64,000 nt of DNA, taken from assembly GCA_014323865.1 (NCBI GenBank), contig JACONG010000016.1, forward strand, positions 480,523-544,522, written 5' to 3'. This DNA is from Rhodospirillales bacterium (GTDB taxonomy: Bacteria; Pseudomonadota; Alphaproteobacteria; SP197). Position numbers and translations under genes: made by a program. The notes under the pieces were generated by a model, which worked only from the letters and a program-made list of their open reading frames with translations, ran no database searches and had not been told where the DNA came from. The stretch's first letter is position 1, and the number at the start of each line of letters is the position of its first letter. Below are positions 30,393-47,100 of the stretch, one piece after another.

Positions 30393-31565
30393 CTACTTGT
30401 ATGGGTCCGCTGCGTCCCGCAGGCCGTCGCCGAGGAAGTTGAAGGCCAGGACGACGACGATGACGGGGGCGACCGGCAGCATGAGCCAGGGGTAGAGCGC
30501 GACAACGTTGATGTTCTGGGCTTCGTTGAGCAGGACACCCCAGCTTGTGATCGGCGGACGCAGGCCAAGGCCCAGGAAGGAGAGCGCGGTCTCGCCCAGG
30601 ATCATCGCGGGGATGGAGAGCGTGGCGGACGCGATCAGGTGGCTCGTGAAGCTGGGCAGCAGGTGGCGGAAGATGACGCGTTTGGGTTTCGCGCCCATGA
30701 GTACGGCGGCGGTCGCGAAGTCCTCCTCGCGCAGGGCCAGAAGCTTCGATCTCACCGCGCGGGCGAGGCCGGTCCAGTCGAACAGGCCCAGGATGATGGT
30801 GATGCCGAAGTAGACCAGGATCGGGCTCCAGGTCACCGGCAGGGCCGCTGAAAGCGCCATCCAGAGTGGCAGTTCGGGGAAGCTGCGGATGATCTCGATC
30901 AGGCGCTGCACGGCGTTGTCGATCCAGCCGCCGTAGTAGCCCGAGAGGCCGCCCAGAATGATGCCCAAAAGGAAGCTGATGGTGATGCCGATCAGGCCGA
31001 CAGTGAGAGAGACGCGCGCACCATAGAGGATACGCGAGAACATGTCGCGACCCAGCCGGTCGGTGCCGAAGAGATAGAGCGTGCCGTCCTCGGCCGGGCA
31101 GAAGATGTGGAAGCGGCCCTTGATCATGCTCCAGAACTCGTAAGCGTCGCCAAGGCAGAGGAAGCGGATCGGCTGCACCTTCGAGGTGTCCTCGACATAG
31201 ACGCGCCGGAGCGTCGACATGTCGAGCTCGGACTTGAAGCCGTAGACGAACGGCCCGACGAACGAGCCTTCGTGGAACAGATGGATCTGCTGCTGCGGCG
31301 CATAGATGTGCTGCACGTCGCGGGTGTGCAGATTGTAGGGTGCCAGGATCTCGGAGATCAGGATGGAGCCGAATGTCAGCAGCAGCAGGATGCCCGACCA
31401 CACCGCGAGCTTGTGGCGGCGGAACTTCCACCACATCAGCGTCCACTGGTTGGCGAGGTAGAACTTCTCCTGTTCCGGCGTCAGCTGTTCGACGGAATGG
31501 GGGTCCCAGGGCTCCGTGTCGACGTGGTGTTCGATGTGACCGCTGTCGCGTGTGCTGTCGACCAT
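30393..31565 (-). CDS. ABC transporter permease, OppC/DppC type
   Basis: Inner-membrane subunit of a family-5 ABC importer, 390 residues, longer than the usual ~300. The extra length comes from an N-terminal cytoplasmic extension and a periplasmic loop (about 85-165) between helix 1 and the FGTDRLGRDMFSRILYGARVSL block. The coupling segment is EEDFATAAVLMGAKPKRVIFRHLLP, and LGLRPPITSWGVLL is typical. It shares one base with the OppB-type gene and is the last gene of the long minus-strand operon. Confidence 0.93.
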   Translation of the reverse strand: MVDSTRDSGHIEHHVDTEPWDPHSVEQLTPEQEKFYLANQWTLMWWKFRRHKLAVWSGILLLLTFGSILISEILAPYNLHTRDVQHIYAPQQQIHLFHEGSFVGPFVYGFKSELDMSTLRRVYVEDTSKVQPIRFLCLGDAYEFWSMIKGRFHIFCPAEDGTLYLFGTDRLGRDMFSRILYGARVSLTVGLIGITISFLLGIILGGLSGYYGGWIDNAVQRLIEIIRSFPELPLWMALSAALPVTWSPILVYFGITIILGLFDWTGLARAVRSKLLALREEDFATAAVLMGAKPKRVIFRHLLPSFTSHLIASATLSIPAMILGETALSFLGLGLRPPITSWGVLLNEAQNINVVALYPWLMLPVAPVIVVVLAFNFLGDGLRDAADPYK

Positions 31566-32563
31566 CAGTGCGAGGCCTCCTGGCCGAGGCGAATGCGCGG
31601 GTCGAGCACGGCGAGCAGCATGTCGGAGACAAGCACGCCGATCACGGTCAAGAGCGCCAGCGCCATCAGGAAGGACCCGGCGAGATACATGTCCTGGGTC
31701 TGGAGCGCACGCAGCAGGATCGGGCCCGTAGTCGGCAGTGAGAGCACGACCGAGACGATGACGGCGCCCGAGATGACTTGGGGAAGCAGATTGCCGATGT
31801 CGGCGATGAACGGGTTGAGCGCCATGCGCAGCGGATACTTCACCAACGCGCGCCCGGGCGGCAGGCCCTTGGCGCGGGCGGTGACGACGTACTGCTTCTG
31901 CAGCTCGTCAAGCAGGTTGGCCCGCAGGCGGCGGATCAGGCCCGCTGTGCCCGAGGTGCCAATCACGACGACTGGAATCCAGAGGTGCTCGAGGATCGAG
32001 ACGAACTTGCCCCAGCTCCAGGGCGCGTCGATGTATTCGGGGTCCATCAGGCCGCCGATCGAGGTGCCGAACCAGACGTTGGCGAGGAACAGCAGGACTA
32101 GCGCCAGCAGGAAGTTCGGCGTGGCAAGCCCGAGGAAACCGATCAAGGTCAGCCCGTGGTCGCCCCATGAGTACTGGTGAGTCGCGGAATAGACGCCGAT
32201 CGGGAAGGAGACGACCCAAGTGAAGATGATCGTGGCGCCCGAGACGATGATGGTGAGCCACAGGCTTGGCCCGATCACCTCTGAGACCGGTTTCTCGTAT
32301 TCGAAGCTGATCCCCATCTTGCCCTGCATGAGGTCGGTGACCCAGATCAGGTACTGATGCCAGATCGGCTTATCGAGGCCGAACTCCTGACGATAGAGAT
32401 CAATCTGCTCGGCGCAGCCCTTCTGGCCCGATGCCTCGCACTCTGCGATCAGCGTCGAGAGGAAGTCGCCCGGCGGCAGCTGGATGATGATGAACGTGAT
32501 CAGGCTGATGCCGATCAGCGTCGGCACCATGATCACGAGGCGATAGGCGACGTACTGGATCAT
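31565..32563 (-). CDS. ABC transporter permease, OppB/DppB type
   Basis: Inner-membrane partner of the OppC-type permease, 332 residues with six helices. It begins MIQYVAYRLVIMVPTLIGISLITF, the standard OppB opening. The EAA-like loop reads YVVTARAKGLPPGRALVKYPLRMA. A periplasmic segment with two cysteines (CEASGQKGC) lies between helices 1 and 2. It lies 170 bases downstream of the binding-protein gene. Confidence 0.94.
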   Translation of the reverse strand: MIQYVAYRLVIMVPTLIGISLITFIIIQLPPGDFLSTLIAECEASGQKGCAEQIDLYRQEFGLDKPIWHQYLIWVTDLMQGKMGISFEYEKPVSEVIGPSLWLTIIVSGATIIFTWVVSFPIGVYSATHQYSWGDHGLTLIGFLGLATPNFLLALVLLFLANVWFGTSIGGLMDPEYIDAPWSWGKFVSILEHLWIPVVVIGTSGTAGLIRRLRANLLDELQKQYVVTARAKGLPPGRALVKYPLRMALNPFIADIGNLLPQVISGAVIVSVVLSLPTTGPILLRALQTQDMYLAGSFLMALALLTVIGVLVSDMLLAVLDPRIRLGQEASH

Positions 32564-32733: not shown

Positions 32734-34638
32734 TCACGGGCGGCCGTCGTCACCGTTGGTGAAGAAGAAGGTGTCGGGCTGGTACATGCCGAGCTGAGCG
32801 CCGGGATCCCAGTTGTAGAGGCCTTCTGTGGGCACGTTGTGGAGCCGGTTCGAGGTCACGATCGGCTGCAGCGTGCCGGCCACAAGACCGATGGAATAGA
32901 CGCCGTCGGAATAGATCGTAAGGATTTCCTTCCAGATCGCCTCGCGCTCCTCGCCCGAGGTGGCGGCACGCCAGGCGAGGTAGAGCTCCATCAGGCGCTG
33001 GGGTCCGTCCATGTCGATCGGGCGGCCGGCCTCGCCGCCGGTCTCGTAGTACTGACCCCAGGTCGGCCACATGAAGAGCTGCTGGGAAGTCGGGGCGAAC
33101 TCCGACGGGCTCATGGCGGCGCTGGGGATGCCGTTTTCGTTGCCGAACCAGATCGATATCAGCGTTTCGCAGGCAAAGATTCGGTTGCGCAGAACCTCGC
33201 GCTGCAGCGGCTTGGAAAACATCTTCACACCGACCTGCAGCCAGTGATCGTGAACCAGCTCCAGAATGTCGGTTTCCTCGGTGTTCTCGCCGGCGGTCTC
33301 GACGATGATCTCCATCGGCCGCCCGTCGGGCAGCAGGCGAATGCCCTTGCTGTTGCGTTCGGTCAGACCCATGTCATCAAGAAGGCGGTTAGCCTCGTCG
33401 ATGTCGAAGCTGGCGTAGACCTCACGGTAGTGCGGATCGAAAAGAGGTGAGGCCGGCAGCACCGTGTTCTGCCCTTCGATGCCCAGGCCGTAGTAGATCA
33501 CCTGATTGAGCTCGGTGCGGTCGATGGCCTGCGACAGTGCGCGACGGAAGCGCACGTCGCGCACCACCTTGTTCCACACGGGGTTGTTGACGCACAGGTT
33601 GGGGTAAAGCGCGAGCTGGCTGCCCCGAGCGGTCTGCCACAGGTTGACCGTGTAGTCGCTGTGGGTCTCGCCTTCCTTGAGGAAGGTGAAGTCGCTGAAC
33701 GACAGGGCGCGGGCCTGCAGGTCCGATTCGCCCGACCAAGTCTTGAGCGGCACGAGCTTGCTGTCGACCACGTTCATCAGCACTTGGTCCATGTAGGGCA
33801 ACTGCTGCCCGGCGGCATCGACCTTATAGTAGTATGGGTTACGCTCGCCGACAAAACGTTGTGCCGGGGCCTCATTGGTGATGGTCCAAGGCTGGAGGGT
33901 CGGCAGGCTGTCGCTATCGAACTTGTACATATCGTCTTCGGCGTTGTGCAGCGACGCCCAGCTCGTCTTCTCGGCTTCTTCGACCCATTGCGCGATCTGA
34001 TCGGTGTCGCCGTAGTCGGCATGGTACTGCTTCATGAAATGCGCGGGCCTGTATAGGAAGATCGGCGAGGCCGAGGCCAGCGCGGGCAGGAAGTCGGGGT
34101 TCGGCTTGTCCCAGGTATAACGAATGGTCGTTTCGTCGATCACCTCGAACGCGGGCGCTTGGCCGTCGACCAGCAGGATCGAGGGCGGGCCCGACGGTGC
34201 GAGCTCCTCGTTGTTGGCGACGTCCTCCCACCAGTAGCGGAAGTCCTCGGCGGTTAAGGGATGGCCGTCGGACCACCTGTGGCCCTCGCGCAAGTGGAAG
34301 GTGAAGATACGGCCTTCCTTGACCTCATAGGACTCGAGGATGTCGGGCACGATCTCGAGCGCGGTGTTGTAGCCGACCAGCCGAGCGTAGCCGAACACGA
34401 CCAGGAGCCGGGTGTCCTTGCTGCGCGTGATCAGCATGGTCCAGTCGCCGCCGTAGGTGCCGATCTCGCGTCCATCGTCGACCACGAGCGGTTCGCTCGG
34501 CAGGCGCTCGGCCATGGGCGGCAGCTCGCCCGACGCGACCATCTCTTCCCAGTACGGGACCTCGTCCGCTGCTGCCGGCGAAAGCGTGAGGGATGCGAAC
34601 ACATGGGCGCAGAGCGTCAGGGCGAGAAAGCGGATCAT
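32734..34638 (-). CDS. ABC transporter substrate-binding protein, family 5, oligosaccharide/peptide type
   Basis: Periplasmic receptor of 634 residues from the ATG at 34636-34638, which overlaps the ATPase stop (ATGA) and begins a clear Sec signal (cleavage near AAA-DEVPYW). The start of the mature protein, GELPPMAERLPSEPLVV, belongs to the long SBP5 subgroup that includes receptors for oligosaccharides as well as peptides. Core blocks are FHLREGHRWSDGHPLTAEDF, the RFRRALSQAIDR segment and GLYNWDPGAQLGMYQPD. Its genetic link to glycosyltransferases makes a glycan fragment or muropeptide ligand attractive, but this is inference. Confidence 0.9.
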   Translation of the reverse strand: MIRFLALTLCAHVFASLTLSPAAADEVPYWEEMVASGELPPMAERLPSEPLVVDDGREIGTYGGDWTMLITRSKDTRLLVVFGYARLVGYNTALEIVPDILESYEVKEGRIFTFHLREGHRWSDGHPLTAEDFRYWWEDVANNEELAPSGPPSILLVDGQAPAFEVIDETTIRYTWDKPNPDFLPALASASPIFLYRPAHFMKQYHADYGDTDQIAQWVEEAEKTSWASLHNAEDDMYKFDSDSLPTLQPWTITNEAPAQRFVGERNPYYYKVDAAGQQLPYMDQVLMNVVDSKLVPLKTWSGESDLQARALSFSDFTFLKEGETHSDYTVNLWQTARGSQLALYPNLCVNNPVWNKVVRDVRFRRALSQAIDRTELNQVIYYGLGIEGQNTVLPASPLFDPHYREVYASFDIDEANRLLDDMGLTERNSKGIRLLPDGRPMEIIVETAGENTEETDILELVHDHWLQVGVKMFSKPLQREVLRNRIFACETLISIWFGNENGIPSAAMSPSEFAPTSQQLFMWPTWGQYYETGGEAGRPIDMDGPQRLMELYLAWRAATSGEEREAIWKEILTIYSDGVYSIGLVAGTLQPIVTSNRLHNVPTEGLYNWDPGAQLGMYQPDTFFFTNGDDGRP

Positions 34639-36515
34639 GCGGCTAGTCTTTCCGGCATTTTGCTGGCGCGGACGAAGTGACCCCCGCCGATGTCGATCAT
34701 GTCGATAGTCTCGCCTTGGCGTACGGTGAAGGGTTCGGGCCACTGCGCCGGAACCGAGGCGCGCCCTTCCATGAGGCGGGTGAGGTCGAGCTTGCGGTCC
34801 GGATTGGGCTCCGGCACGGCGGCCAGCAACGCCTGCGTGTAGGGGTGGACCGGATTCTTGAAGATCTCCTCGCGGCTTGCCTGCTCGACCAGCCGGCCGG
34901 CGCACATCACGGCGATGCGGTCGGCCATGTAGTCGACCACGGCGAGGTTGTGGGAGATGAAGAGGTAGGTCAGCCCCAACTCCTTCTGGAGATCCTTCAG
35001 GAGGTTGAGGATCTGGGCCTGGATCGACACGTCGAGCGCAGAGACGGGCTCGTCGCAGATCAGCAGCTCGGGTTCGAGCGCCAGCGCACGCGCGATGCCG
35101 ATCCTCTGGCGCTGTCCACCGGAGAAGCTGTGCGGGTAGCGGCGCAGATGGCGCACGTCCAACCCGACCAGCCGCATCAGTTCCATCACCCGTTGCTCGC
35201 GCTCTTTCGCCGATCCCACCTTATGGATCACAAGCGGCTCGGAAATGATATCGAACACTGTCATGCGTGGATTCAGCGATCCGAACGGGTCCTGGAAGAT
35301 GAACTGCACCTTGCGGCGGTAGTCGAAGAGCTCGCCACCCCGAAGCGTGGCGATGTCGACGGTCTTGCCCCGGTCATTGAAGGTTACGAGCCCCGAATCG
35401 GGTGTGAGCGCCTTCATGATCATCTTGCTGGTCGTCGTCTTGCCGCAGCCTGATTCGCCGACCAGGCCGAGGCACTCGCCGCGCAGGACGTCGAAGCTGA
35501 CGTTGTCGACCGCCAGGTTGCTCACTGTGCCGCGCTCGAACATACCCTTCTTGCGCGTGGTAAAGGTCTTGGTCAGGTGCTGGGCCGAGAGCAGGCGATT
35601 GTCGCCACCCTCGGGCCAGGGCTCGCGCTCGGGGCGCTTCAGCGAACTCCGGTCCTGCTTGATCTCGCGCAGGGGGATCAGACGCTCCCCGGGTTTCATG
35701 TCGAAGCGCGGCACCGCGGCCAGAAGGCCTTTGAGATAGGGATGCTGCGGGTTACCGAAGATATCCTCCAAGCTGCCCTGCTCCATGATTCGGCCGTGGT
35801 ACATGACGACCACGTCCTTCGCGACATTGGCGACGACGCCGAGATCGTGGGTGATCATCAGGATCGCCATGCCGAGCTCGGACTGGAGGTCGGCGATCAG
35901 CTTGAGGATCTGGGCCTGAATCGTCACGTCGAGCGCGGTGGTCGGCTCGTCGGCGATCAGGAGGCTGGGGCGGCAGACCAGCGCCATCGAAATCATGGCG
36001 CGCTGGCGCAGACCGCCCGAGAGTTCAAAGGGGTAGCTCGCGTAGGCACGCTCGGGATTGGGGAAGCCGACCAATCGCAACATGTCGACGGTCAGTTCCT
36101 TGCCTTCCTGCTTGGAGCAGTTGCGGTGCAGGAAGAGCGCCTCGCTGACCTGGTCGCCGACCGTGTGCAGTGGCGACAGCGAGGTCATCGGTTCCTGGAA
36201 GATGATCGAGATGCGGCCGCCACGAATCTGACGCATCTTCTTTCCGTCGGCGTGCAGGCTGCCGATGTTCATTGGCTCGGTGCCTGGATTGGCGGGATCG
36301 TGGAGCAGGATCTGCCCTCCGGTGATCTCGGCGGCTTGGGGCAGGATGCGCATGATCGACTGCGATATAACGGTCTTGCCGGAGCCCGATTCGCCGACCA
36401 AAGCGATCGTGCGGGCCGCGGGAATGGTGAAGCTGACACCCTTCACGGCTTCGACCGTGCCGTCGCCGATCAGAAACTGGATTCTGAGGTCCTTGATGTC
36501 GACAAGTGGGGTCAC
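34635..36515 (-). CDS. Fused dual ABC transporter ATP-binding protein (DppD-DppF type)
   Basis: Cytosolic energy subunit of the importer, 626 residues holding two complete nucleotide-binding domains. The first has Walker A GESGSGKT and Walker [13 protein letters not shown]. The second has GESGCGKTT, the [15 protein letters not shown] signature and [12 protein letters not shown]. In domain 1 the signature is [11 protein letters not shown]. The linker around 290-320 is basic and proline-rich. Both domains keep all key residues, so hydrolysis should be normal. It overlaps the genes on both sides by four bases. Confidence 0.96.
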
Positions 36516-37057: not shown

Positions 37058-37824
37058 GAAGTGGGTCCAGAACGAAAGAAAATCTGTGACGCGTCGAGCC
37101 AGCGCGCCGCCGGATGATCGCGCACCAAACTGACAAAACTGTCAACAAAGCGCCAGCAATCGACGTCCTGAACCCGATGATGGGTCATCAGCCCGGTCGG
37201 TTCCTCGGAATCGACGGTTCCCGCCCGACGGGCCCGAAGGTGGCCCAGCGTCGCCGCAAGGCAGCGCTCGTGGCTGGCGAACCGGCCTCCCTGCTTCCAA
37301 TCGATGATGTCGACATGGACGTTGGCGACGGTGAGGTCATGGAGCACGGCGTCATCGCGTGGCCCGAGCATGGAGAGACCCTCGAAGCCGAGATCGGCCA
37401 AGAGCCGTATCACGACGTCATCGGCCCTGTTCCAGGGAGGGACCATCACCGGGAGCATGCGCTTGGCAAGGCGCGTCTCGAGCACGCATAGTCCGTCGGC
37501 CAGCACGCCGGTCAGGCCCGCTTCGAGACCCTCCAGCGCCAGCTCGGTCTTGCGGCGGTCGGCGGACGCGCGGTTGGTATGGTGCGCGCCATGCTGCAAG
37601 GCATGGCAGCCGTCATCGTCGAGTGCGGCGCAGGCAGCGTCCTCCAACCAATGGGGCACCACGGCCAACGCCAACGGCACGCCGAGGCCGCGGCGCTGGT
37701 CGAGCAGAACCGGCAGCTTTCCGTCGTCGGGTCCGGCGTCATCGTCGCGCCACCAGAATGTGGCGGTACGGCCCGCATCGGACCAGCGATCCAGCTCGTC
37801 GCTCAGTTCGGTCCATTCAGCCAT
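37054..37824 (-). CDS. Polysaccharide deacetylase family protein
   Basis: A 256-residue protein from the ATG at 37822-37824. The NodB-like fold is shown by TFWWRDDDAG (catalytic and metal aspartates, about 23-32), PLALAVVPHWL, the LQHGAHHTNRA metal-histidine segment and the C-terminal LMTHHRVQDVDCWRF. There is no signal peptide, so it probably acts in the cytosol on a nucleotide- or lipid-linked sugar. The substrate is unknown. It overlaps its neighbours by eight and four bases. Confidence 0.85.
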   Translation of the reverse strand: MAEWTELSDELDRWSDAGRTATFWWRDDDAGPDDGKLPVLLDQRRGLGVPLALAVVPHWLEDAACAALDDDGCHALQHGAHHTNRASADRRKTELALEGLEAGLTGVLADGLCVLETRLAKRMLPVMVPPWNRADDVVIRLLADLGFEGLSMLGPRDDAVLHDLTVANVHVDIIDWKQGGRFASHERCLAATLGHLRARRAGTVDSEEPTGLMTHHRVQDVDCWRFVDSFVSLVRDHPAARWLDASQIFFRSGPTS

Positions 37825-38956
37825 TGCGGCTCCAGGAACACAGCAAGTCCGCGCTGCGCTCGGCACCATCCAGATCGATCGTGTCGGGATCAAGCCGCGG
37901 CAGGGCGGCGGCCCGATCGATCGCTTTGGCCAAAGTGGCGGGCGACAGCGCAGCCTCTGACAACATCACGATCATGCCGCGCCCGGCAAGCCGTGCGGCT
38001 CGATCGGACTGTTCGGTCTCGCCGCCCTCGGCAAAGGGCACGACCACTGCACGGGCACGGGCACGGAAAAGATCGGTCGCCGTGTTGTAGCCGCCTTGGG
38101 AGACCGACACGCGGCAACGCGCCAAGAGGTCGGGGAAGTCGGCGCGGTTCGGTTCGACAACCATGCCGCCGCCTGCACCGCGCACCGCTGCTGCGGTTGA
38201 CCGGTCGCCGGTCAGGATGCGCCATACAAGATGGCCCGTGACCGTGGCATGCCTTTGCGCTGCAATCGCGGTTTCGAGCAGGCGTTCTCCGACCGCGCCA
38301 CCGCCGGCTGAGACGATCACCTCGTCAGCCCCGTCGCCCGCTTGCGCGATGGTGCGGGGCGTATCGGCGATATAGCCCGTATGGATGACCCGTTCTCCGA
38401 GATCGTCAGCGCAGGGGAAGGAGTCGCCGAATCGCACCAGGCCGGGATCGCCATGCACCAGGACGTGATCGTAACGTGCGAGCGCGATGTCGCGCATGGT
38501 CATGGCTTTCTCGGGGCACGATGTTCGCTGCAGGATGTCGCGCACCGACGCGACGATACGGGGCGCAGGGCTGAGGGTCGCAGCGGCATCGAGCAGAGTC
38601 ATTGCCTCGTGGTGCAGGACGCGGCGGCCGAAGGGAAAGGTCTCGGTCACCACGACCGAAGGGTGGGTCTCGGCGACCAGGTCTGTCAGGATCGCCCGTC
38701 GGCTTGCCAGCAGCGTCTCGTCCACGGGGCACCCGTCTCCATCGACCAGCCTGGAGAACGTCACGTCGGCCGTGCGGACCGGCGGCAGCTGCACGAGGTG
38801 GGCATCACCGATGTCGAGATGGGCGATCGGCAGGCCGCCCGAAGCGACCACGGCCTCGACCTCGCGGGCGGCCAAGGCTCTGGCGATCGACGCGATCCGG
38901 CGCAGATGGCCGCTGCCCAGAAGATGCTGGACCCAAAAGAGCACGGGACCGTTCAT
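37817..38956 (-). CDS. MurG-like GT-B glycosyltransferase
   Basis: A 379-residue protein starting MNGPVLFWVQHLLGSGHLRR. The GxGHLRR N-terminal loop and the C-terminal CRVSVSQGGYNTATDLFRARARAVVVPF block match family-28-type (MurG-like) GT-B glycosyltransferases that use UDP-sugars. The sugar donor and acceptor are unknown. It shares its GxGHLRR architecture with the gene at 41896-43161, suggesting paralogues. It overlaps the deacetylase and phosphatase genes. Confidence 0.82.
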   Translation of the reverse strand: MNGPVLFWVQHLLGSGHLRRIASIARALAAREVEAVVASGGLPIAHLDIGDAHLVQLPPVRTADVTFSRLVDGDGCPVDETLLASRRAILTDLVAETHPSVVVTETFPFGRRVLHHEAMTLLDAAATLSPAPRIVASVRDILQRTSCPEKAMTMRDIALARYDHVLVHGDPGLVRFGDSFPCADDLGERVIHTGYIADTPRTIAQAGDGADEVIVSAGGGAVGERLLETAIAAQRHATVTGHLVWRILTGDRSTAAAVRGAGGGMVVEPNRADFPDLLARCRVSVSQGGYNTATDLFRARARAVVVPFAEGGETEQSDRAARLAGRGMIVMLSEAALSPATLAKAIDRAAALPRLDPDTIDLDGAERSADLLCSWSRNG

Positions 38957-39546
38957 TGTTCGGCGTCCAGCGACAGGGGACCGCAGGGATCGAGCCGGCA
39001 ACCGCCGTCGTCATCAAGCGCCAGCACCAGAATGCTGGAGCGCGTGAGCTTCAGCGGCGGGCGCGAGAGGAAGTCCCAGCCGGTCGCCATCCCGAGGGCG
39101 GCACGCATCACGCCACGATGGCTGACGGCGATGGTGTTTTCGCCGCCGGCCCGTTCGCGGAACAGATCGCCGAGACGGGCCTGAACATCGCGCGGGCTCT
39201 CGCCGCCTACGGGTCGGAAGTCGAGTCCGCGCGCTTCGTTCTCGGCCATGGCATCGCCGAGTTCATCGCGCAGCTCCTCGAGCGTTCGTCCGGCCCAAAG
39301 GCCCCAGTCCATTTCGATCAGGCGCTCGTCGGCCGTGGCGTTCGCCAGGCCCAGCATGGCCGCCGTGTCACGGGTACGCGCGAGCGGACTGGTGAGCGCC
39401 AGCCAGCCCCTGAGCGTCTCCGGCAGACTCCAGCCGGCCGCGAGCGCCGTTCCCGCCGCCGAGAGTGGGGTATCGGTACGGCCCTGAATGCGCCCGTCTT
39501 CGTTCCAGTCGGTCGGCGCATGGCGGATCATGCCGAGATGTGTCAT
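38953..39546 (-). CDS. Histidine phosphatase family protein
   Basis: A 197-residue phosphoglycerate-mutase-like phosphatase. The catalytic RHG motif is present as MIRHAPTDWNEDGRIQG, with RHA in place of RHG, a common variant. Other conserved parts are TSPLARTRDTAAML, the DWGLWAGRTLEEL segment and the second histidine in VSHRGVMRA. It may remove phosphate from a sugar-phosphate intermediate made by the neighbouring glycosyltransferases (inference). It overlaps both neighbours by four bases. Confidence 0.9.
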   Translation of the reverse strand: MTHLGMIRHAPTDWNEDGRIQGRTDTPLSAAGTALAAGWSLPETLRGWLALTSPLARTRDTAAMLGLANATADERLIEMDWGLWAGRTLEELRDELGDAMAENEARGLDFRPVGGESPRDVQARLGDLFRERAGGENTIAVSHRGVMRAALGMATGWDFLSRPPLKLTRSSILVLALDDDGGCRLDPCGPLSLDAEQ

Positions 39547-40658
39547 CGGGCGGCCCGTGCGGTTGCGATGGCGCGGTCGAGCGTCGCCGCTGCGGCCTCA
39601 ACGCTGTGTCGCCGCAAGACGTTGTCGGCCGCTGCCACACCCATCGCTGCACGCCGCCTGGGCTCGTCGGCCAGCCGTGCTACGGCTGCGGCAAACGCAT
39701 CAGCATCATCCTCCGGGGTGAGGAATCCCGTACGCTCGTCGTCAACGATCTCGGGCACGCCGCGCGCACGCCCCGCGACCACCGGCAGGCCCGCCGCCTG
39801 CGCCGCGAGCAACGCCATGCCGTAGGCCTCGTTGATCGCCGGCCAGACAAAGAGATCGCATGCCGCCAGCACGCCCGGCAGCGAGCGTGGCGCGATCCTG
39901 CCCGCGAAGAGGGCGCGCCCGTCGAACATGGCCTCGATCTCCGCACGGCAGGGGCCGTCTCCCACGACCAGTAGATCGATATCGTAGCGGTCGAGCGACC
40001 GGAACGCCTCTGCGAGAACGCGGTAGGACGCGAGCTTGTCGCCCGGCCGCATCATGCCCACGGCCACGGCAAGGAGACGTCCGTGCGCCAGACCGTGGGT
40101 CTTCGCTAGGGTCTCGCGCGCCTTCGGCCGGGGGCGGCGATATGGCGCGAGATCGACAAAGGGCGCCAAGGTCACGATACGCGTGTCCGGAATTCCCGCC
40201 GCTCGGAGTCCCGCCGCGTCATCGCCGGTGATCGGAAGCAGCGCATCGGCCCGTGCGAGGCAGGCGAGCGACTGTGCATAACCGGCTGCCCATGGCCCGT
40301 GACGCTGCTTGGGCGCAACCGACGGCTCGGCCACGACATAGGGCAGGCCGAAGGCCTCGGCGACACGGGGCCCCAGATGGTCGGGCGCCTTGTGATAGAG
40401 ATGATAGGTGAACCAGAGGTCGGGCGGCGCCGCCTGCCAGCCGTCGATCAGGGCCGCGGCTTCGGCCCTGCCGCGCGCGGCGAGCAGCTTCTGTCGTTCG
40501 CTGTCGCCGCCGTCCCAGACGCGCAGACTCGACGCCAGCGTCACCGTGTGGCCGAGGCTTTCCAGCGTCTTCACCAGCAGGCGTGCGACGGTGCGGTCGC
40601 CCGATGGCACCCGGTGGGTCGGCGCTTTCATGGGCGCGTAGAATGCAATGGTCGACAC
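39543..40658 (-). CDS. Family 4 glycosyltransferase (first of two)
   Basis: A 371-residue GT-B enzyme. The N-terminal acceptor domain starts STIAFYAPMKAPTHRVPSGDRTVARLL. The C-terminal GT4 domain shows VGMMRPGDKLASYRVLAEAF, VGDGPCRAEIEAMF and EAYGMALLAAQAAGLPVVAG, including the EX7E-type signature. Donor and acceptor are unknown. It starts three bases after the second GT4 gene and overlaps the phosphatase gene by four bases. Confidence 0.88.
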   Translation of the reverse strand: MSTIAFYAPMKAPTHRVPSGDRTVARLLVKTLESLGHTVTLASSLRVWDGGDSERQKLLAARGRAEAAALIDGWQAAPPDLWFTYHLYHKAPDHLGPRVAEAFGLPYVVAEPSVAPKQRHGPWAAGYAQSLACLARADALLPITGDDAAGLRAAGIPDTRIVTLAPFVDLAPYRRPRPKARETLAKTHGLAHGRLLAVAVGMMRPGDKLASYRVLAEAFRSLDRYDIDLLVVGDGPCRAEIEAMFDGRALFAGRIAPRSLPGVLAACDLFVWPAINEAYGMALLAAQAAGLPVVAGRARGVPEIVDDERTGFLTPEDDADAFAAAVARLADEPRRRAAMGVAAADNVLRRHSVEAAAATLDRAIATARAAR

Positions 40659-40661
40659 GGG

Positions 40662-41915
40662 TCAGAGACCGAAGCGTATTGCCAGATCTTCTATGCCCGT
40701 TTCCATGGAGAACGTCGAACGCACCCGGTCGCTGCCCGCCGTGCCGAGGGTATGGCGCAGGGCCGGGTCGGCGATGACCTTCTCGAGTGCTGACGCGAGC
40801 GTGGCAGGATCGCCGGGTTCGACGAGCAGTCCGGTGTCGCCGTCCACGATCAGCTCGGGCACCGCCGAGACACGCGTGGCAACGATCGCGAGATTCTGGC
40901 TCTGCGCCTCCATCAGCACGTTGGGCAGGCCGTCGCGATTACCGTCGCCAGCGATCCGCGAGGCGAGGACGAAGGCATCCGCGGCGCGATAGGCCGCGAG
41001 CACATCGCTCTGGGGTTTGGCGCCGTGCCAAGTGATTCGGTCGGCGATACCGCTTTGTTCACCCTGTGCCTTGAGTGCTGTGCCGAGCGGTCCGCCCCCA
41101 ATGTGATTGAGCCGCCAGTGGAGTCCGGGCGACAGGCGCGCCAGGGCCGCCAGTAGGTCGTCGTAACCCTTTTTCTCGACCAGCCGCCCGACCGAGACCA
41201 GACGCACGGGATCGTCCGCGTCGCTGCCGTCGGCTGTGCGGTTCCGTTCCGGGGCGGCGGGCCAGCGGGCAAGATCGAGACCGTGATAGACGAGGTCGAC
41301 CCGGCCTTCAGGCGCAAGGTGCCCCAGGTGCTCGCAATTGGCAGCGGTGCAGGTCACAAGCCAGCCGCAATCGGCCAGCTTCTCCCTGAGCTCCCAGTCG
41401 GGCGAGGTGTAGATGTCCTTGGCGTGGGCCGACCCGGTCCAGGCAAGCCCCGTCATCATCGCGGCATACCGGGCCACCGATGCCGGGGTATGAAGAAAAT
41501 GGGCATGAAGATGCCGAACGCGGGGCGCGACCTCAGCTGCCAGAACACAGGCCTGACCGAACCGCCGGAGCCTGTTGCGTGTCATGTCGCGCCGGAGGTC
41601 CGCTAGCCATTGCCGCCTGGCTGCCGGATAGCCCGGCAGTCGCCGCGCGGTGCGCCATGCGCTTATGACCCGGGCGGGCTCCTGGTGGATGTATTCGGGC
41701 AGATAGGTCACCGGCGCGACGATCTCGTCGTGCACCGGATGGGTTGCCGTGTCGGTCGGATGGCGCAGGGACACGATCTCGATCGCCAGACCGCGCGCTT
41801 CAAGCGCCCGGATCTCCTGGGCGATGAAGGTCTCCGACAGACGGGGATAACCCTTCAGGACAAAGGCGACACGATCCGTGCCGATCATGGCATGGTCAGC
41901 CGGTCCGGCGGTCAT
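40662..41915 (-). CDS. Family 4 glycosyltransferase (second, colanic-acid type)
   Basis: A 417-residue GT-B enzyme with the N-terminal FVLKGYPRLSETFIAQEI segment typical of GT4 enzymes in exopolysaccharide clusters. Its C-terminal domain has VGRLVEKKGYDDLLAAL, AADAFVLASRI and EAQSQNLAIVATRVSAVPELI. The ATG at 41913-41915 overlaps the upstream gene by 20 bases; an internal ATG at 41886-41888 is an alternative. Sugar specificity is unknown. Confidence 0.88.
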   Translation of the reverse strand: MTAGPADHAMIGTDRVAFVLKGYPRLSETFIAQEIRALEARGLAIEIVSLRHPTDTATHPVHDEIVAPVTYLPEYIHQEPARVISAWRTARRLPGYPAARRQWLADLRRDMTRNRLRRFGQACVLAAEVAPRVRHLHAHFLHTPASVARYAAMMTGLAWTGSAHAKDIYTSPDWELREKLADCGWLVTCTAANCEHLGHLAPEGRVDLVYHGLDLARWPAAPERNRTADGSDADDPVRLVSVGRLVEKKGYDDLLAALARLSPGLHWRLNHIGGGPLGTALKAQGEQSGIADRITWHGAKPQSDVLAAYRAADAFVLASRIAGDGNRDGLPNVLMEAQSQNLAIVATRVSAVPELIVDGDTGLLVEPGDPATLASALEKVIADPALRHTLGTAGSDRVRSTFSMETGIEDLAIRFGL

Positions 41916-43161
41916 CGTTGCGCGCCACCGTCAGGCGCTCCTGACGGGTTCCGTGCGGCAGCTTGAACGCGGTCCGACCCTCGGCGAGATGCATGGCAAC
42001 CAGCCGGTTGACGTTCTCGAGCCCGTCGAGCAGGCCCGGCACGACCACCTGGCTGGGACGGCGCTGCTGGGTGAGCTGGCGGATCGCCGTCGCCATGGCC
42101 GCTGCGTTCTCGGCCATGTCCTCGGTCAGCATTGTGACAAGCCCGAGCTCCTGGGCACGGCTGGCGCGGATCAGTTGCTCGCGACGCGGCACCTGGCGGG
42201 GCACGATCAGTGCCGGTTTGTCGAACGACAGGATCTCGCAAAACGTGTTGTAACCGCCCATGGCGACGACACCAGCAGCGCGTTCCATCAGCGTTTCCAG
42301 ATGGGCGTCGAAGGTGATGGCGGTGACCCGCTCGAGCAGGTCGACGCGCTCCTGGAACTCGGCCTTGACCTCGGGCTGCATGAACGGCCCGAAGACCACC
42401 AAGGCCGGGATCTCCGGTGAGCGCGGGCTCTCATAGGCCTTCAGCACCCAGTCGACCAGAAGGTCGCCGTCGCCACCGCCGCCCGTGGTCACCAGGACAA
42501 AGGGCTCCTTGATGCCGTCTGGCAGGCCTATCTCGGGCAGGCTCTGGGGCACGGACCGTTCGAGATACCCAGTGTAGATCATCTTGCGCCGCACCGACTG
42601 CGGCACATTGATCTCTTCCAGCGGGTCGTGCACCTGCGGCAGGCCATAGACCCAGATCTCGTCATAGAGGTCGCGCAGGGCGGGAATCGCCTTCTTGCGT
42701 CGCCATTCGGCCTTGAGCGCGGTGGGGTCGTCCATCACGTCGCGCAGGCCGAGAATGATTCGGGTGCCGCGCGGTTTCAGCATTTCGATTGTCTCGCGCA
42801 CCTCGCCGCGCAGGCCGAGCGGTTCCTTGTCGACGAGGAAGATGTCGGGATCGAAAATGTTGGCGGTGTGCGTGATGATCGACGAGCGCATCGCCATCGT
42901 CTGCTCGGTGTCGAGCATCAGATTGAGCGAGGTGTATTCGCCGTTCCTGAGCTTGATGACGCCCGGCACGCGGACGAAGTCGACGCGCGCACGGAAATCG
43001 AAGCTACCGATGATCGGGGATCCCGACAGGATCAGGACCGTCAGGTTGTCGGTCTCGCCGACCATCGAATGAGCGATCGCCCGGCACCGTCTGAGGTGGC
43101 CGAGTCCGAAGCTGTCGTGACTGTAGATCAGGACACGTGGACGCGCCGTCGCTGCATTCAT
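41896..43161 (-). CDS. MurG-like glycosyltransferase, first gene of the long operon
   Basis: A 421-residue protein opening VLIYSHDSFGLGHLRRCRAIA, with the same GxGHLRR loop as the protein at 37817-38956. The C-terminal half has LVTTGGGGDGDLLVDW and AAGVVAMGGYNTFCEILSFDKPALIVPR, as in UDP-sugar-using GT-B enzymes. There is no membrane segment. Its start lies 28 bases from a perfect 17-bp palindrome in the divergent promoter region, so it is probably controlled there. Confidence 0.82.
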   Translation of the reverse strand: MNAATARPRVLIYSHDSFGLGHLRRCRAIAHSMVGETDNLTVLILSGSPIIGSFDFRARVDFVRVPGVIKLRNGEYTSLNLMLDTEQTMAMRSSIITHTANIFDPDIFLVDKEPLGLRGEVRETIEMLKPRGTRIILGLRDVMDDPTALKAEWRRKKAIPALRDLYDEIWVYGLPQVHDPLEEINVPQSVRRKMIYTGYLERSVPQSLPEIGLPDGIKEPFVLVTTGGGGDGDLLVDWVLKAYESPRSPEIPALVVFGPFMQPEVKAEFQERVDLLERVTAITFDAHLETLMERAAGVVAMGGYNTFCEILSFDKPALIVPRQVPRREQLIRASRAQELGLVTMLTEDMAENAAAMATAIRQLTQQRRPSQVVVPGLLDGLENVNRLVAMHLAEGRTAFKLPHGTRQERLTVARNDDRRTG

Positions 43162-43381: not shown

Positions 43382-46099
43382 ATGGAACGCACCATTTACG
43401 GCTTTATCTTTCGCTATTCGAAGCGAGAGCAGATTTTCATTCTGCTCTTCACACTGCTTTCGCTGCCGTTCTATTACGTTTCCCTCGATATCCCGAAGCT
43501 GATCGTCAACAACGTTCTGAGCGAGCCGGAAACCACGGTTGAGCCTTTGGTTCCCGGCGTCTCGTCCGCGATTGCCGGCGCAGAGATGGTCGATGAACGC
43601 ATGTTGGTTCTGCTGGGCATCGACATCGTCGAGTTGGAGCGGCTGACCCTGCTCGCGGTCTACAGCGGCGTGTTCCTGCTGCTCGTCGGCATCAACGGTG
43701 GCTTCAAATATTTTATCAATGTTTACAAGGGCTTGCTCGGCGAGCGCATGCTCAGGCGGCTGCGCTATCAGCTCTACAGCCGAATCATGCGGTTCCCGCT
43801 GCCTTATTTCCGGCGGGTCAGTTCGGGCGAGTTGATTCCAATGGTGACCCAGGAGGTCGAGCCGCTCGGCGGTTTCATTGGCGATGCGCTCGCGCTGCCG
43901 ATGTATCAGGGCGGCCTGCTGATCACCGCGCTGGTCTTCATCTTCATGCAGGACGTATGGATGGGGCTCGCGTCGATTTCGCTCTATCCCATGCAGGGCT
44001 GGATCATTCCCAAGCTCCAGCGGCGCGTGAACCTGCTCGGCAAGGAGCGGGTCAAGGAGGTGCGCAAGGTCTCCGAGCGAATCGCCGAAACGGTCCAGGG
44101 CGTCGAGGAGATGCACGCCAACGGCATGGTGCGCTGGGAGATGGCCGAGTTCACCTCGCGCATGAGCCGGATCTTCGAGATCCGCTACGCGATCTACCGC
44201 AAGAAGTTTTTCATCAAGTTCCTGAACAACTTTCTGGCCCAGCTCACGCCGTTCTTCTTCTACGCCATCGGCGGTTACTTCGTGATCGACGGGTCGCTTT
44301 CGCTCGGCGGTCTCGTGGCCGTGCTCGCGGCCTACAAGGACCTGCCGCCGCCCTGGAAAGAACTGCTGAACCACTACCAGATCCGCGAAGACGCCAAGAT
44401 CAAGTACGACCAGGTGGTGACGCAGTTTGCCCCGGCCGGGATGCGCGAGGACGAGGTCGTCGCCGGCGATGCCGAGGTTCCGAGGTTCGAGGGCGATCTC
44501 GTGGCGACCAACGTCAAGTACGAGGAAGACGGTGACACCCTGATCGACGGCTTTAACCTGGAGGTTCCGCTCGACAGCCACGTCGCAATCGTGGGTGATG
44601 CCAGCAGCGGCAAGGACCGGGCCGCCATGCTCATCGCCAGACTGGTCAATACCTCCGGAGGCAAGATCAGTTACGGCGGTGTCGAGGGTGACACCATGCC
44701 CGAGATCATCTCGGGCCGCCGGATCGGCTACGTCGGGCCGGCGACGAGCCTGTTCTCGGCCTCGCTCAAGGACAACCTGCTTTACAGCCTGCGCCAGACG
44801 CCCCAGCACGAACGCGAGCCCGAAGGCTCCGACGAGCGGCAAAAGCTTGCGCGAACCCGAAGCGAATCGATCAAGACTGCCAACAGCCCCGACGACGTCT
44901 TCGCCGACTGGGTCGACCGGTTACAAGCAGGTGCAACCGACGACGAGAGTCTGGTTGAGGCCGCGCGTCGGGCCCTGGATATCGCTGACATGGAAGAGGA
45001 TGTCTACCAGCTCGGCCTGCGCGGCAGGCTCGATCCTGAAAAGAGGCCCAAGGCGGCCGAACGCCTGCTCAAGGCGCGCAAGCTGCTCGAGGAACGGCTG
45101 AAAGAGGACGTCTATCTCGGCCTGGTCGAACCCTTCGACCGGACGGCCTACAACTCGAACGCCACGGTCGGCGAGAACCTCCTGTTCGGCACGCCGGTGG
45201 GTGACGCGTTCGATCTCGAGCGTCTGCCCGAGAACGAATACGTCATGAAGATCCTGGGCGAGGTCGACCTGGTCGACGACTTCCTCAAGATCGGCCACGA
45301 AGTCGCCCAGACCATGATCGAGCTGTTTGCCGATTTGCCGCCCGACCATGAGTACTTCGCCCAGTTCTCGTTCATCTCGCTCGACGACCTGCCGGACTAC
45401 CAGGCGATCCTGCGCAAGGTCGAACGCGACAGCCTTGAGGGCCTGAACGACGAGCAACGCCTGCTTCTGCTCTCGCTGCCGTTCAAGCTCGCGCCGGCCC
45501 GCCATCGCCTCGGCCTGATCGACGACGCCACCCAGGACCGCATCCTGGAGGCGCGACGCCTGTTCGCCGAGGAGTTGCCCGAAGACCTCGCCGGCGCGGT
45601 CGAGTTCTTCGACCGAGACAGCTACAACGCCGCCTCCTCGCTTCAGGACAACATCCTGTTCGGCAAGCTGGTCTACGGCCGGGCGCAGGCCCAAGCCAAG
45701 ATCGGCCAGCTCATCTCTGAGGTCGTGGAATCGCTCGAACTGCGCTCGACTGTTGTGGTCGTGGGTATCGACTTCGAGGTCGGCATCGGCGGTTCGCGCC
45801 TCTCGCTGGCACAGCGCCAGAAGACGGCCATTGCGCGCGCGGTGCTCAAGCAACCTCAGGTGATCGTGCTTTCGGAAGCCACCGCTGCGCTGGATGGCTC
45901 GTCGCAAAGCACCATATTGAACAAGATACGCGAAGAGTTCCGCGGCAGGGCCGTCATCTGGATCATGCACAGGCCGAGCCAAGCCGAAGCCTTCGATCAG
46001 GTCGTGGTCATGAAGGGCGGCAAGGTGGCCGAGAAAGGGTCATACGACGAACTGATCGCCAAAAAGGCGATCTTGGCTGATCTGGTCGCTGCGGAATAG
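43382..46099 (+). CDS. Aberrant ABC-exporter-like protein with altered ATP site and large insertion
   Basis: A 905-residue fused membrane/nucleotide-binding protein. Residues 15-330 resemble a type IV exporter membrane domain with about six helices. The nucleotide-binding domain starts near 370, but its Walker A (405-412) reads GDASSGKD, with Asp for Ser/Thr. The signature (807-811) reads LSLAQ instead of LSGGQ, and Walker B reads VIVLSEATAALD with Ser831 for Asp (Glu832 kept); the H-loop His863 is present. About 270 extra residues lie between Q-loop and signature, with repeats of FDR..YN..x5..NLLFG type. Normal hydrolysis seems doubtful. The gene leads a plus-strand operon with a cNMP-binding protein. 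Confidence 0.85.
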   Translation: MERTIYGFIFRYSKREQIFILLFTLLSLPFYYVSLDIPKLIVNNVLSEPETTVEPLVPGVSSAIAGAEMVDERMLVLLGIDIVELERLTLLAVYSGVFLLLVGINGGFKYFINVYKGLLGERMLRRLRYQLYSRIMRFPLPYFRRVSSGELIPMVTQEVEPLGGFIGDALALPMYQGGLLITALVFIFMQDVWMGLASISLYPMQGWIIPKLQRRVNLLGKERVKEVRKVSERIAETVQGVEEMHANGMVRWEMAEFTSRMSRIFEIRYAIYRKKFFIKFLNNFLAQLTPFFFYAIGGYFVIDGSLSLGGLVAVLAAYKDLPPPWKELLNHYQIREDAKIKYDQVVTQFAPAGMREDEVVAGDAEVPRFEGDLVATNVKYEEDGDTLIDGFNLEVPLDSHVAIVGDASSGKDRAAMLIARLVNTSGGKISYGGVEGDTMPEIISGRRIGYVGPATSLFSASLKDNLLYSLRQTPQHEREPEGSDERQKLARTRSESIKTANSPDDVFADWVDRLQAGATDDESLVEAARRALDIADMEEDVYQLGLRGRLDPEKRPKAAERLLKARKLLEERLKEDVYLGLVEPFDRTAYNSNATVGENLLFGTPVGDAFDLERLPENEYVMKILGEVDLVDDFLKIGHEVAQTMIELFADLPPDHEYFAQFSFISLDDLPDYQAILRKVERDSLEGLNDEQRLLLLSLPFKLAPARHRLGLIDDATQDRILEARRLFAEELPEDLAGAVEFFDRDSYNAASSLQDNILFGKLVYGRAQAQAKIGQLISEVVESLELRSTVVVVGIDFEVGIGGSRLSLAQRQKTAIARAVLKQPQVIVLSEATAALDGSSQSTILNKIREEFRGRAVIWIMHRPSQAEAFDQVVVMKGGKVAEKGSYDELIAKKAILADLVAAE

Positions 46100-46123: not shown

Positions 46124-46579
46124 ATGAGCCTGCAACAGGATGTCGAGCTGCTGCGCAAGATTCCCCTGTTCGCCAAGATCGAACCGAGCAAGCTGAAGCT
46201 CCTGGCTTTCACGGCCGAGCGCCTGACCTTCGGTCAGGGCGACGTGCTCTTCCGTCAGGGCGACGAAGGCGATTCGGCCTACATCATCATCGACGGTGAA
46301 GCCGACGTTCTGGTCGCCACCGACACCGGGCAGGTCACGGTTGCGACGCTCAAGACGAACGACTTCCTGGGCGAGACCGCTATCCTGTGCGACGTGCCGC
46401 GAACCGCGACGGTGCAGGCCAAGACCGACCTCGTGACGTTGATGATCTCGAAGGACCTGTTCTTCCAGCTCGTCAGCCAGTTCCCCTCCATGTCGATCGA
46501 GATCATGCGCGAACTGGCGCGCCGCGTGGAGCGCACGACGGCACAGCTGCGCGAAGTTGTCTCGCAGCGTCTGGCCTGA
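46124..46579 (+). CDS. Free cyclic-nucleotide-binding domain protein
   Basis: A 151-residue protein made of one Crp-type cNMP-binding domain with a short helical tail and no DNA-binding domain. The beta-roll has GDVLFRQGDEGDSAYIIIDGEA. The phosphate-binding cassette is FLGETAILCDVPRTATV, retaining the Gly-Glu and Arg that bind the cyclic phosphate. It begins 24 bases after the ABC gene, so it is probably co-transcribed. A likely role is to report cyclic nucleotide to a partner, possibly the ABC protein (inference). Confidence 0.9.
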   Translation: MSLQQDVELLRKIPLFAKIEPSKLKLLAFTAERLTFGQGDVLFRQGDEGDSAYIIIDGEADVLVATDTGQVTVATLKTNDFLGETAILCDVPRTATVQAKTDLVTLMISKDLFFQLVSQFPSMSIEIMRELARRVERTTAQLREVVSQRLA

Positions 46580-46614: not shown

Positions 46615-47100
46615 GTGAGCCGTCTCGACAGTGTGATCCGTCGTCTGGAGGCCCAGCGCGACTGCCTCGGTGCTGCAGCGTCGCTGATCGACGGTCGCGG
46701 CGGACCCGTTCTGGAGATCGGACTCGGCAACGGCCGGACCTACGACCATCTGCGCGAGCTGATGCCCGATCGCACGATCTACTGCTTCGACCGACAGATT
46801 GCTGCTCATCCCGACTGCATCCCCGACGATGAACACATGTTCCTGGGCGATCTCAGCGAGACCATGCCGCTGGCCGCCCAGCGCCTGGGCGCAACCACCG
46901 TGCTGGCGCATGTTGACATCGGCTCGGGCGACAAGGGTACCTCGCTGGCGCTCGGGCGTTGGCTGGCCGGTGCGCTTTTGCCGCTGCTGACCTCCGGTGC
47001 GATCGTCGTCAGCGACCAGCCGGTGCCAGGCGACGGCTGGCAGATGATCGATCTCCCAGAAGGCGTGGTGCCTGGCCGCTACCACATACAGAAGGTGTGA
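46615..47100 (+). CDS. Small class I SAM-dependent methyltransferase
   Basis: A 161-residue protein with a GTG start at 46615. It has a compact Rossmann core: VLEIGLGNGRTYDHLRE (motif I), TIYCFDRQIAAHP (motif II), VLAHVDIGSGD and SGAIVVSDQP. There is no added substrate domain, and the substrate is unknown. The gene lies 35 bases after the cNMP-binding gene, so it belongs to the same transcription unit. Confidence 0.82.
   Translation: MSRLDSVIRRLEAQRDCLGAAASLIDGRGGPVLEIGLGNGRTYDHLRELMPDRTIYCFDRQIAAHPDCIPDDEHMFLGDLSETMPLAAQRLGATTVLAHVDIGSGDKGTSLALGRWLAGALLPLLTSGAIVVSDQPVPGDGWQMIDLPEGVVPGRYHIQKV

Follow-up and report, generated by a model that had tools for sequence, protein, structure and literature searches.

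Anatomy of the exporter-fold gene in the window

We analyzed a 64,000-nucleotide stretch of the genome of a Rhodospirillales bacterium (contig JACONG010000016.1, positions 480,523 to 544,522), hereafter called the window, with the focus on a gene encoding an ATP-binding cassette (ABC) exporter-like protein, P0001. Upstream of it lies a mostly divergent cluster of glycosyltransferase genes, and directly downstream a gene for a predicted cyclic nucleoside monophosphate (cNMP)-binding protein (Table 1). Translation of the window gave an open reading frame (ORF) of 905 codons for P0001, with the sole stop codon at its end. P0001 has the fold of the ABC exporter superfamily: PF00664 was matched with 78.4 bits (cut-off, 28), and PF00005 with 42.3 bits, split over two stretches, together with the fold of a nucleotide-binding domain (NBD). 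No other Pfam domain, and no peptidase, was found in P0001 at an E value of ≤0.01. The residues of an ATP-driven ABC exporter were found to be altered at four sites (GKD, LSLAQ, S-E and Pro).

The original prediction, made from the sequence of the window, had described a Walker A motif ending in GKD, an LSLAQ signature and a Ser in place of the Walker B Asp, together with a retained Walker A Lys, catalytic Glu and H-loop His. The translation bore out all of these, the retained residues being Lys411, Glu832 and His863, and added one altered site, the loss of the Q-loop Gln (Pro453). A long insertion between the Q-loop and the signature had also been described; it is present, but with a surplus of about 298 residues rather than 270, because the spacing from residue 453 to residue 807 is 353 residues in P0001 and 55 in L118, an MsbA-like control. 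The predicted structure of P0001 had a mean predicted local distance difference test score (pLDDT) of 83.9, and of about 90 over the NBD and the insert. The anatomy of P0001, an exporter fold with an altered ATP site and a repeated segment, is firm.

Table 1. Features of P0001 and of the surrounding genes in the window. Rows refer to the alignments and loci to the 80 genomic loci described in the text; aa, amino acids.
Feature	Position	Strand	Basis or remark
Degenerate ABC-exporter-fold protein (P0001)	43382..46099	+	905 aa, ATG to stop
Transmembrane domain (TMD) core, residues 91-350	43652..44431	+	PF00664 at 91-315; best conserved large region
Variant Walker A motif, residues 405-412 (GDASSGKD), with Asp at the position of the Mg-ligand Ser/Thr	44594..44617	+	Translation, family alignment
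Unit 1 (446-579): Q-loop strand, post-Q-loop helix DNLLYS, helical segment	44717..45118	+	hhalign against units 2 and 3 and the MsbA-like NBD profile
Q-loop position 453, Pro in place of Gln	44738..44740	+	Translation, family alignment
Unit 2 (578-738): VEPFDRTAYNSNATVGENLLFG and helices	45113..45595	+	hhalign; predicted structure
Unit 3 (736-826): VEFFDRDSYNAASSLQDNILFGK, helices, signature helix	45587..45859	+	hhalign; predicted structure
Signature variant LSLAQ (807-811)	45800..45814	+	Translation, family alignment
Variant Walker B motif, residues 827-832 (VIVLSE), with Ser831 at the Asp position and the catalytic Glu832 retained	45860..45877	+	Translation, family alignment
H-loop His863, retained in P0001	45968..45970	+	Non-His in 66/195 rows, 4 being gaps
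Stand-alone predicted cNMP-binding protein, 151 aa	46124..46579	+	PF00027, 75.7 bits
Phosphate-binding cassette GETAILCDVPRTAT (residues 83-96 of cNMP protein)	46370..46411	+	Alignment of 80 rows
Methyltransf_17 S-adenosylmethionine methyltransferase, probable third operon gene	46615..47100	+	PF12692, 173 bits; 50/80 loci
MurG-like glycosyltransferase GT28a, divergent	41896..43161	-	PF04101; 68/80 loci
GT4 glycosyltransferase a	40662..41915	-	PF00534; 70/80 loci
GT4 glycosyltransferase b	39543..40658	-	PF13692; 64/80 loci
Histidine phosphatase superfamily protein	38953..39546	-	PF00300; 62/80 loci
Second MurG-like glycosyltransferase GT28b	37817..39001	-	PF04101; 60/80 loci
Opp/Dpp-type importer double ATPase	34635..36515	-	Split PF00005 match, plus PF08352
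Family 5 solute-binding protein of Opp-like importer (start approximate)	32734..34680	-	PF00496
Importer permeases OppC (30393-31565) and OppB (31565-32563)	30393..32563	-	PF00528
452-aa protein with a class III adenylate/guanylate cyclase domain	24851..26209	+	PF00211, 57.7 bits (cut-off, 21.9)

The ATP site is altered throughout the family

To describe the family, 7,997 candidates from a protein search were scored, and 6,902 matched at an E value of ≤1e-20, a number that may include ordinary exporters beyond the best 120. The best 120 of these matches, the query included, were 817 to 981 aa long and 52 to 81% identical to P0001. A close alignment was made of 85 of them. At position 831, that of the Walker B Asp, the residue was Ser in 70 rows, Ala in 9, Asn in 5 and Cys in 1; at position 412, that of the Walker A Ser/Thr, it was Glu in 54, Asp in 17, Ser or Thr in 4 and another residue in 10. 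A wide alignment, from which sequences shorter than 820 aa were dropped, comprised 195 rows, of which 84 came from the protein database and 111 from genomic loci. It includes the duplicates L092 and L113 as well as many close relatives, and 105 rows were left at <80% identity.

Among the 195 rows, the Walker A Lys was found in 145, the Walker A Ser/Thr in 15, the Q-loop Gln in 56, both signature Gly residues in none, the Walker B Asp in 16, the catalytic Glu in 155 and the H-loop His in 129; the full motif set occurred in none, and 170 had neither Mg2+ ligand. The corresponding numbers for the 105 nonredundant rows were 73, 7, 29, 0, 14, 72, 56, 0 and 88. The substitutions are thus a trait of the family, the Walker B Asp being absent from all 85 close rows. 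The original prediction had named a case that would speak against it, namely homologues with unaltered motifs and without the insertion; among the 195 rows none of this kind was found, and the ordinary exporters formed a separate group. Four relatives of 1,018 to 1,065 aa (L100 to L103), present in two copies in some genomes, have kept the insert and the exporter part; their Walker A motif is unrecognizable and most motifs are lost.

We then compared conservation, measured as the mean majority residue, between the 105 nonredundant rows and 30 MsbA-like control proteins from the same class. The control ORFs were partly picked by the pattern G..G.GK and by no other motif; just 2 of the 58 genomes of the class pass the TIGR02203 cut-off. 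In the family, conservation was 0.725 for the TMD, 0.537 for the N-terminal core of the NBD and 0.532 from Walker B to the end; it was 0.527, 0.628 and 0.615 for units 1, 2 and 3 of the insertion region, respectively, and 0.746 for the signature helix. The order was reversed in the controls, where the NBD (0.727) exceeded the TMD (0.594) and each motif residue was retained in 27 to 30 of the 30 proteins. The mean pairwise identity was nearly equal in the two sets (0.489 in the family and 0.471 in the controls). Conservation is thus inverted relative to the controls: selection maintains the signature helix and the membrane part, and does not maintain the ATP site. A non-hydrolyzing relative would be expected to show such a pattern, which falls short of proof.

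The order of the losses was reconstructed by parsimony on two trees. The first, a midpoint-rooted FastTree tree of the 105 rows, was built from residues 91 to 350 and 553 to 800 with the ATP motifs excluded, and gave "not Asp" at position 831 and an acid at position 412 as the states at the base. The second was built from 260 TMD columns with 12 of the 30 control exporters as the outgroup, row L106 being dropped as too partial; the remaining 104 family rows formed a single clade, and an acid at 412 was again found at the base. In both trees, the Walker B Asp changed state 9 times and the Walker A Ser/Thr 6 times, against 18 and 18 changes (first and second tree) for the Lys, 17 and 16 for the Glu and 17 and 20 for the His. 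Under both rootings, the basal state of the family is one in which an acid had already taken the place of the Walker A hydroxyl, with the Lys, Glu and His often variable after that. The suggestion in the original prediction that P0001 may bind nucleotide is less well supported: given the incomplete retention of these three residues in the wide alignment and their 16 to 20 changes each on the trees, there is no clear sign of selection even for the binding of nucleotide.

The same data bear on the explanation that the protein is still driven by ATP at a rewired metal site, where the Walker A hydroxyl and the Walker B carboxylate have been swapped (an acid at 412 and a Ser or Asn at 831), so that Mg2+ may still be held and ATP slowly hydrolyzed. 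Its best argument is the pairing itself, since 155 of the 195 rows have an acid at 412 and 145 combine it with Ser, Thr, Asn, Ala or Cys at 831; the basal placement of the acid under two rootings and the predominant retention of the Lys, Glu and His point the same way. A working site is harder to reconcile with the complete absence of the signature Gly pair, the scarcity of the Q-loop Gln, the repeated changes of the Lys, Glu and His, and the persistence of the insert in L100 to L103 next to an unrecognizable Walker A motif. We consider this explanation rather unlikely.

P0001 could also be the degenerate half of a heterodimer whose other half is an ordinary exporter encoded elsewhere, as in TM287/288 and TmrAB, with one site active. 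The degenerate sites described in excerpts of a review are paired with a canonical one (PMC7756269). Ordinary exporter halves do exist elsewhere in the genome of the window. However, no ORF of 480 to 760 aa with a single Walker A motif and an LSGGQ[R/K]QR signature was found in the loci scanned, as searched with this strict pattern in flanks of mostly 7 kb. In known heterodimers, moreover, some motifs of the degenerate subunit are intact and contribute to the composite site that is active, whereas Walker A, Walker B and the signature of P0001 are all altered in one chain. We regard a heterodimer of this type as unlikely. P0001 itself probably does not hydrolyze ATP.

The insertion contains segments related to the post-Q-loop region

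The repeats FDR..YN...ENLLFG and DNILFG noted in the original prediction are located at residues 585 to 603 and 743 to 761 of P0001, within two of the three units into which the region was divided (Table 1). The units were cut from the family alignment and compared profile to profile by hhalign, with column shuffles as the null. Units 2 and 3 matched with a probability of 98.9% over 83 columns, and none of 60 shuffles reached the score, so the resemblance of the FDR..YN repeats exceeds chance. The proposed relationship between the post-Q-loop region and the insertion also held: unit 1 matched unit 2 with 92% (1 of 60 shuffles was higher). For units 1 and 3, the match was 74% over the Q-loop strand and the post-Q-loop helix (1 of 60 shuffles). 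The shuffle sets of unit 1 each contained one outlier, at about 131 to 134, above the observed score; these outliers are unexplained. They were gone with re-cut borders, when none of 30 shuffles reached the score in any of the three unit pairs (1-2, 1-3 and 2-3).

Against the MsbA-like profile, unit 1 matched with 93% (1 of 60 shuffles), unit 3 with 38% (0 of 60) and unit 2 with 16% (0 of 60). The site matched by all three was the segment ending in ..TV..NI.(Y/F)G directly after the Q-loop; the alignment of unit 3 covers the preceding strand too. Because the units align to one and the same MsbA-like site, we read the segment after the Q-loop as threefold, and the NBD of P0001 is most simply read as holding three copies of it. 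A middle piece (residues ~650 to 714) matched neither the units nor the MsbA-like profile. When residues 553 to 806 were modeled alone, the predicted structure had a pLDDT of 91.4. In this model and in that of the whole P0001, units 2 and 3 showed the same order and spacing of elements, with a strand at 30-32, a helix at 44-49 and a strand at 51-53 in the one and 188-190, 202-207 and 209-211 in the other. Units 2 and 3 and the middle piece were each covered to >60% in all 195 rows of the family alignment, and unit 1 in 194.

A copy of the signature helix in each unit was considered and is not claimed. Units 1 and 2 each have an AR-containing helix; these helices did not resemble the true signature helix (score reached by 5 and 6 of 30 shuffles) and did not stand out against the MsbA-like profile either (6 and 15 of 30), whereas they are alike between themselves (0 of 30). 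P0010, a relative of 944 aa, has an exact tandem duplication of 52 residues within unit 2, at residues 570 to 674. Unless it is an assembly error, this exact repeat indicates that the unit 2 segment is apparently prone to copying.

A cNMP-binding protein is encoded downstream

Neighboring genes were examined in 80 loci, kept out of 570 confirmed candidates in named genome records; gene counts in these loci are lowered by contig ends that cut the flanks. The cNMP gene lies downstream of the ABC gene on the same strand in 77 of the 80 loci, its end being 464 to 1,077 bases (median, 492) beyond the end of the ABC gene. Its product matches PF00027 and has the G-E...R-x-A phosphate-binding cassette. 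Among 80 aligned cNMP proteins (the window and 79 loci), G83, R93 and A95 were found in all 80 and E84 in 76. A Thr follows the cassette Arg in 75 of them. Such a Thr is a feature of cGMP-selective domains of eukaryotic kinases; we draw no conclusion on the ligand from it.

A class III cyclase gene is also found in the window. The genome of the window has two PF00211 and two PF00027 matches in total, and one of each lies in this neighborhood. To follow the distances of the cyclase and the importer, 45 well-assembled genomes were chosen from 131 with the ABC gene. A cyclase match at an E value of ≤1e-40 was found in 21 of them, and in 13 it lay within 20 kb of the ABC gene (for one of the 21, G203, the match positions showed the cyclase to be far away). 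By our own estimate, chance would place a single-copy gene within 20 kb in a 4-Mb genome in about 1% of cases. In a Rhizobium leguminosarum plasmid, a cyclase-domain gene, the importer, the glycosyltransferases, the ABC gene and the cNMP gene stand in one row. The link between the ABC and cNMP proteins put forward in the original prediction is strengthened by the conserved synteny and by the nearby cyclase in part of the genomes, with gating itself being a prediction from gene order and sequence.

Glycan genes and importer in the neighborhood

The glycosyltransferase cluster is mostly divergent from the ABC gene and runs in the same direction in a few of the 80 loci. We read this surface-glycan system as the context that the pseudo-ATPase exporter scaffold serves; a glycan or glycolipid would then be the substance handled. 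This neighborhood, together with the conservation of the TMD, would also suit a passive or channel-like exporter of glycan or lipid, with a head that is merely structural and a cNMP protein that acts elsewhere. The cNMP gene, however, keeps its place and strand downstream of the ABC gene in nearly all loci across the class, and we regard such an exporter as quite unlikely.

Of the 45 genomes, 42 had a match to the solute-binding protein; in 26 it lay no more than 31 kb from the ABC gene, and in 24 of these within 22 kb. Between the cyclase and the importer, on the minus strand at 26844 to 30057, are a DNA-methylase-like ORF (N6_N4_Mtase and DUF1156, both below the cut-off) and an ORF without a Pfam match, which may be a later-inserted modification or defense pair. 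Another minus-strand ORF, at 37054 to 37893, overlaps GT28b and had no Pfam or NCBIfam match; by eye, it may be polysaccharide deacetylase-like.

Distribution of the family

With the insert alone as the query, 131 of 385 alphaproteobacterial genomes (about one-third) were matched at an E value of ≤1e-8, mostly in single copy, and a stop inside the match was found in one listed place among them. A whole-family profile matched 27 of 398 genomes of the phylum, all from the same class, at ≤1e-150, a strict limit that misses divergent members such as G283. The 80 loci include records labeled as two Gammaproteobacteria metagenome-assembled genomes and one Anaerolineae, with binning taken as labeled. 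The genome of the window has one full-length copy and, separately, ordinary MsbA-like exporters. Azospirillum, Rhizobium and Sinorhizobium are among the family members, and 262 plasmid records matched the ABC protein, mostly from Rhizobium (144) and Sinorhizobium (80).

In Sinorhizobium meliloti 1021, the orthologue on pSymB (L115, 13944 to 16713) is split over two overlapping frames, and in strain R14 it is a single open frame. Two of the clustered glycosyltransferase genes in R14 each match across two frames. The split orthologue and the altered motifs are what a decaying pseudogene or a sequencing artefact would leave. Against this stand the length and identity of the best 120 matches and the recurrence of the insert, with its one listed stop, in 131 genomes. 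We give this explanation next to no credence, and for P0001 it is ruled out by the conservation of the family.

The msbA2 gene of S. meliloti was rejected as the orthologue because its place is different: excerpts of one report give msbA2 as SMb21191 and place a fragment of its operon that is bound by ChvI near 938 kb (PMC3687685), and our match is at 841.7 kb. SMb20813 is termed an msbA homologue in excerpts of another report (PMC10945364). Among the titles and abstracts listed from the open-licence literature, none concerned the ABC family; synonyms, or papers that use the locus tag of the S. meliloti match, may escape such a search.

Interpretation

We propose, giving the proposal about an even chance, that P0001 is a three-unit pseudo-ATPase with an exporter fold, which probably does not hydrolyze ATP and for which the downstream cNMP-domain protein is the predicted switch. 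The cyclase of the neighborhood would make the signal, and the small cNMP protein is predicted to bind it via the intact phosphate cassette. The ligand-bound protein might then dock on the cytosolic head, which the repeated helical segments enlarge, and docking might shift the coupling helices so that the conserved membrane part would be opened or closed. Alternatively, docking might hold the neighboring glycosyltransferases at the membrane. The output would be a regulated assembly or release of surface glycan, not an ATP-powered pump stroke. Since the cNMP cassette is intact and the nucleotide site of the ABC protein is drifting, control would be placed with the cyclic nucleotide, not with ATP.

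Several observations weigh against this proposal. Lys411, Glu832 and His863 are present in most rows, a retention that is not demanded by pure scaffolding, and two rows (L095 and L096) combine the Lys, Ser, Asp and Glu with an aligned His. The outgroup-rooted tree leaves the base state at 831 undecided between Asp and another residue, because an early-branching pair retains the Asp; we therefore make no claim of a joint early loss of both Mg2+ ligands. For position 832, the basal state is "not Glu" under both rootings, an odd result that marks a limit of the reconstruction. The membrane part is modeled less surely, with a pLDDT of 41 to 57 at residues 161 to 190 and of 47 at 321 to 330. As for the source of the signal, a cyclase match at 1e-40 is lacking in 24 of the 45 genomes, the match is not near in 8 of the other 21, and the cyclase of R. 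leguminosarum is weakly like that of the window (26%). Cyclase-domain genes are present somewhere in all 45 genomes, so proximity of a cyclase is not required.

A bolder version is possible, although we hold it doubtful: that a family of ABC exporters found across the class has exchanged its engine, with hydrolysis abandoned at both composite sites, a three-unit docking head acquired by copying of the ATPase helical segment and the membrane part switched by a dedicated cNMP protein, which would make it the first cyclic-nucleotide-gated non-ATPase ABC exporter fold. The family allows a direct test of whether ATP hydrolysis is dispensable for driving or gating an exporter fold. In addition, it offers an example of an NBD segment multiplied inside one chain, and provides stand-alone cNMP proteins, cyclases and an uncharacterized glycan cluster in Alphaproteobacteria with a common candidate target.

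Comparison with known systems

P0001 shares the order of TMD and NBD and the fold with the MsbA-type homodimeric exporters (TIGR02203). MsbA_lipidA was its best NCBIfam match, at 197.5 bits, which does not reach the cut-off of 602; the MsbA-like exporter of the window's own genome, at 563 bits, is likewise below it. All of the structure matches listed for P0001 (50 from Foldseek and 50 from VIA) were ABC proteins. P0001 is unlike MsbA in its altered ATP site, in the extra residues from the Q-loop to the signature and in its inverted conservation.

Degenerate exporters have altered Walker B, signature and H-loop residues, and in excerpts of the review on type I exporters the degenerate site is described beside a canonical one (PMC7756269). 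TM287/288, TmrAB, TAP and Pdr5 show similar residue alterations there, yet their second site is canonical. No intact site was found in the 195 rows studied here, and a homodimer of P0001 would have no canonical site because one half-size gene carries all the alterations.

HetC is, according to excerpts of a report, an exporter that needs both its cNMP-type domain and an ATPase residue, with a C39 peptidase and the cNMP domain fused in the chain (PMC10986499). P0001 differs in that the cNMP domain is a separate gene, no C39 peptidase is found by Pfam and the ATP site is altered; it is thus not of the HetC type, in which the C39 peptidase and the cNMP domain are in one chain.

SUR structures were among the listed VIA matches of P0001. 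In SUR and CFTR, the ABC exporter fold serves regulation or gating instead of pumping, the kind of role proposed here for P0001. SUR and CFTR differ from it in being proteins of two halves that keep at least one competent ATP site.

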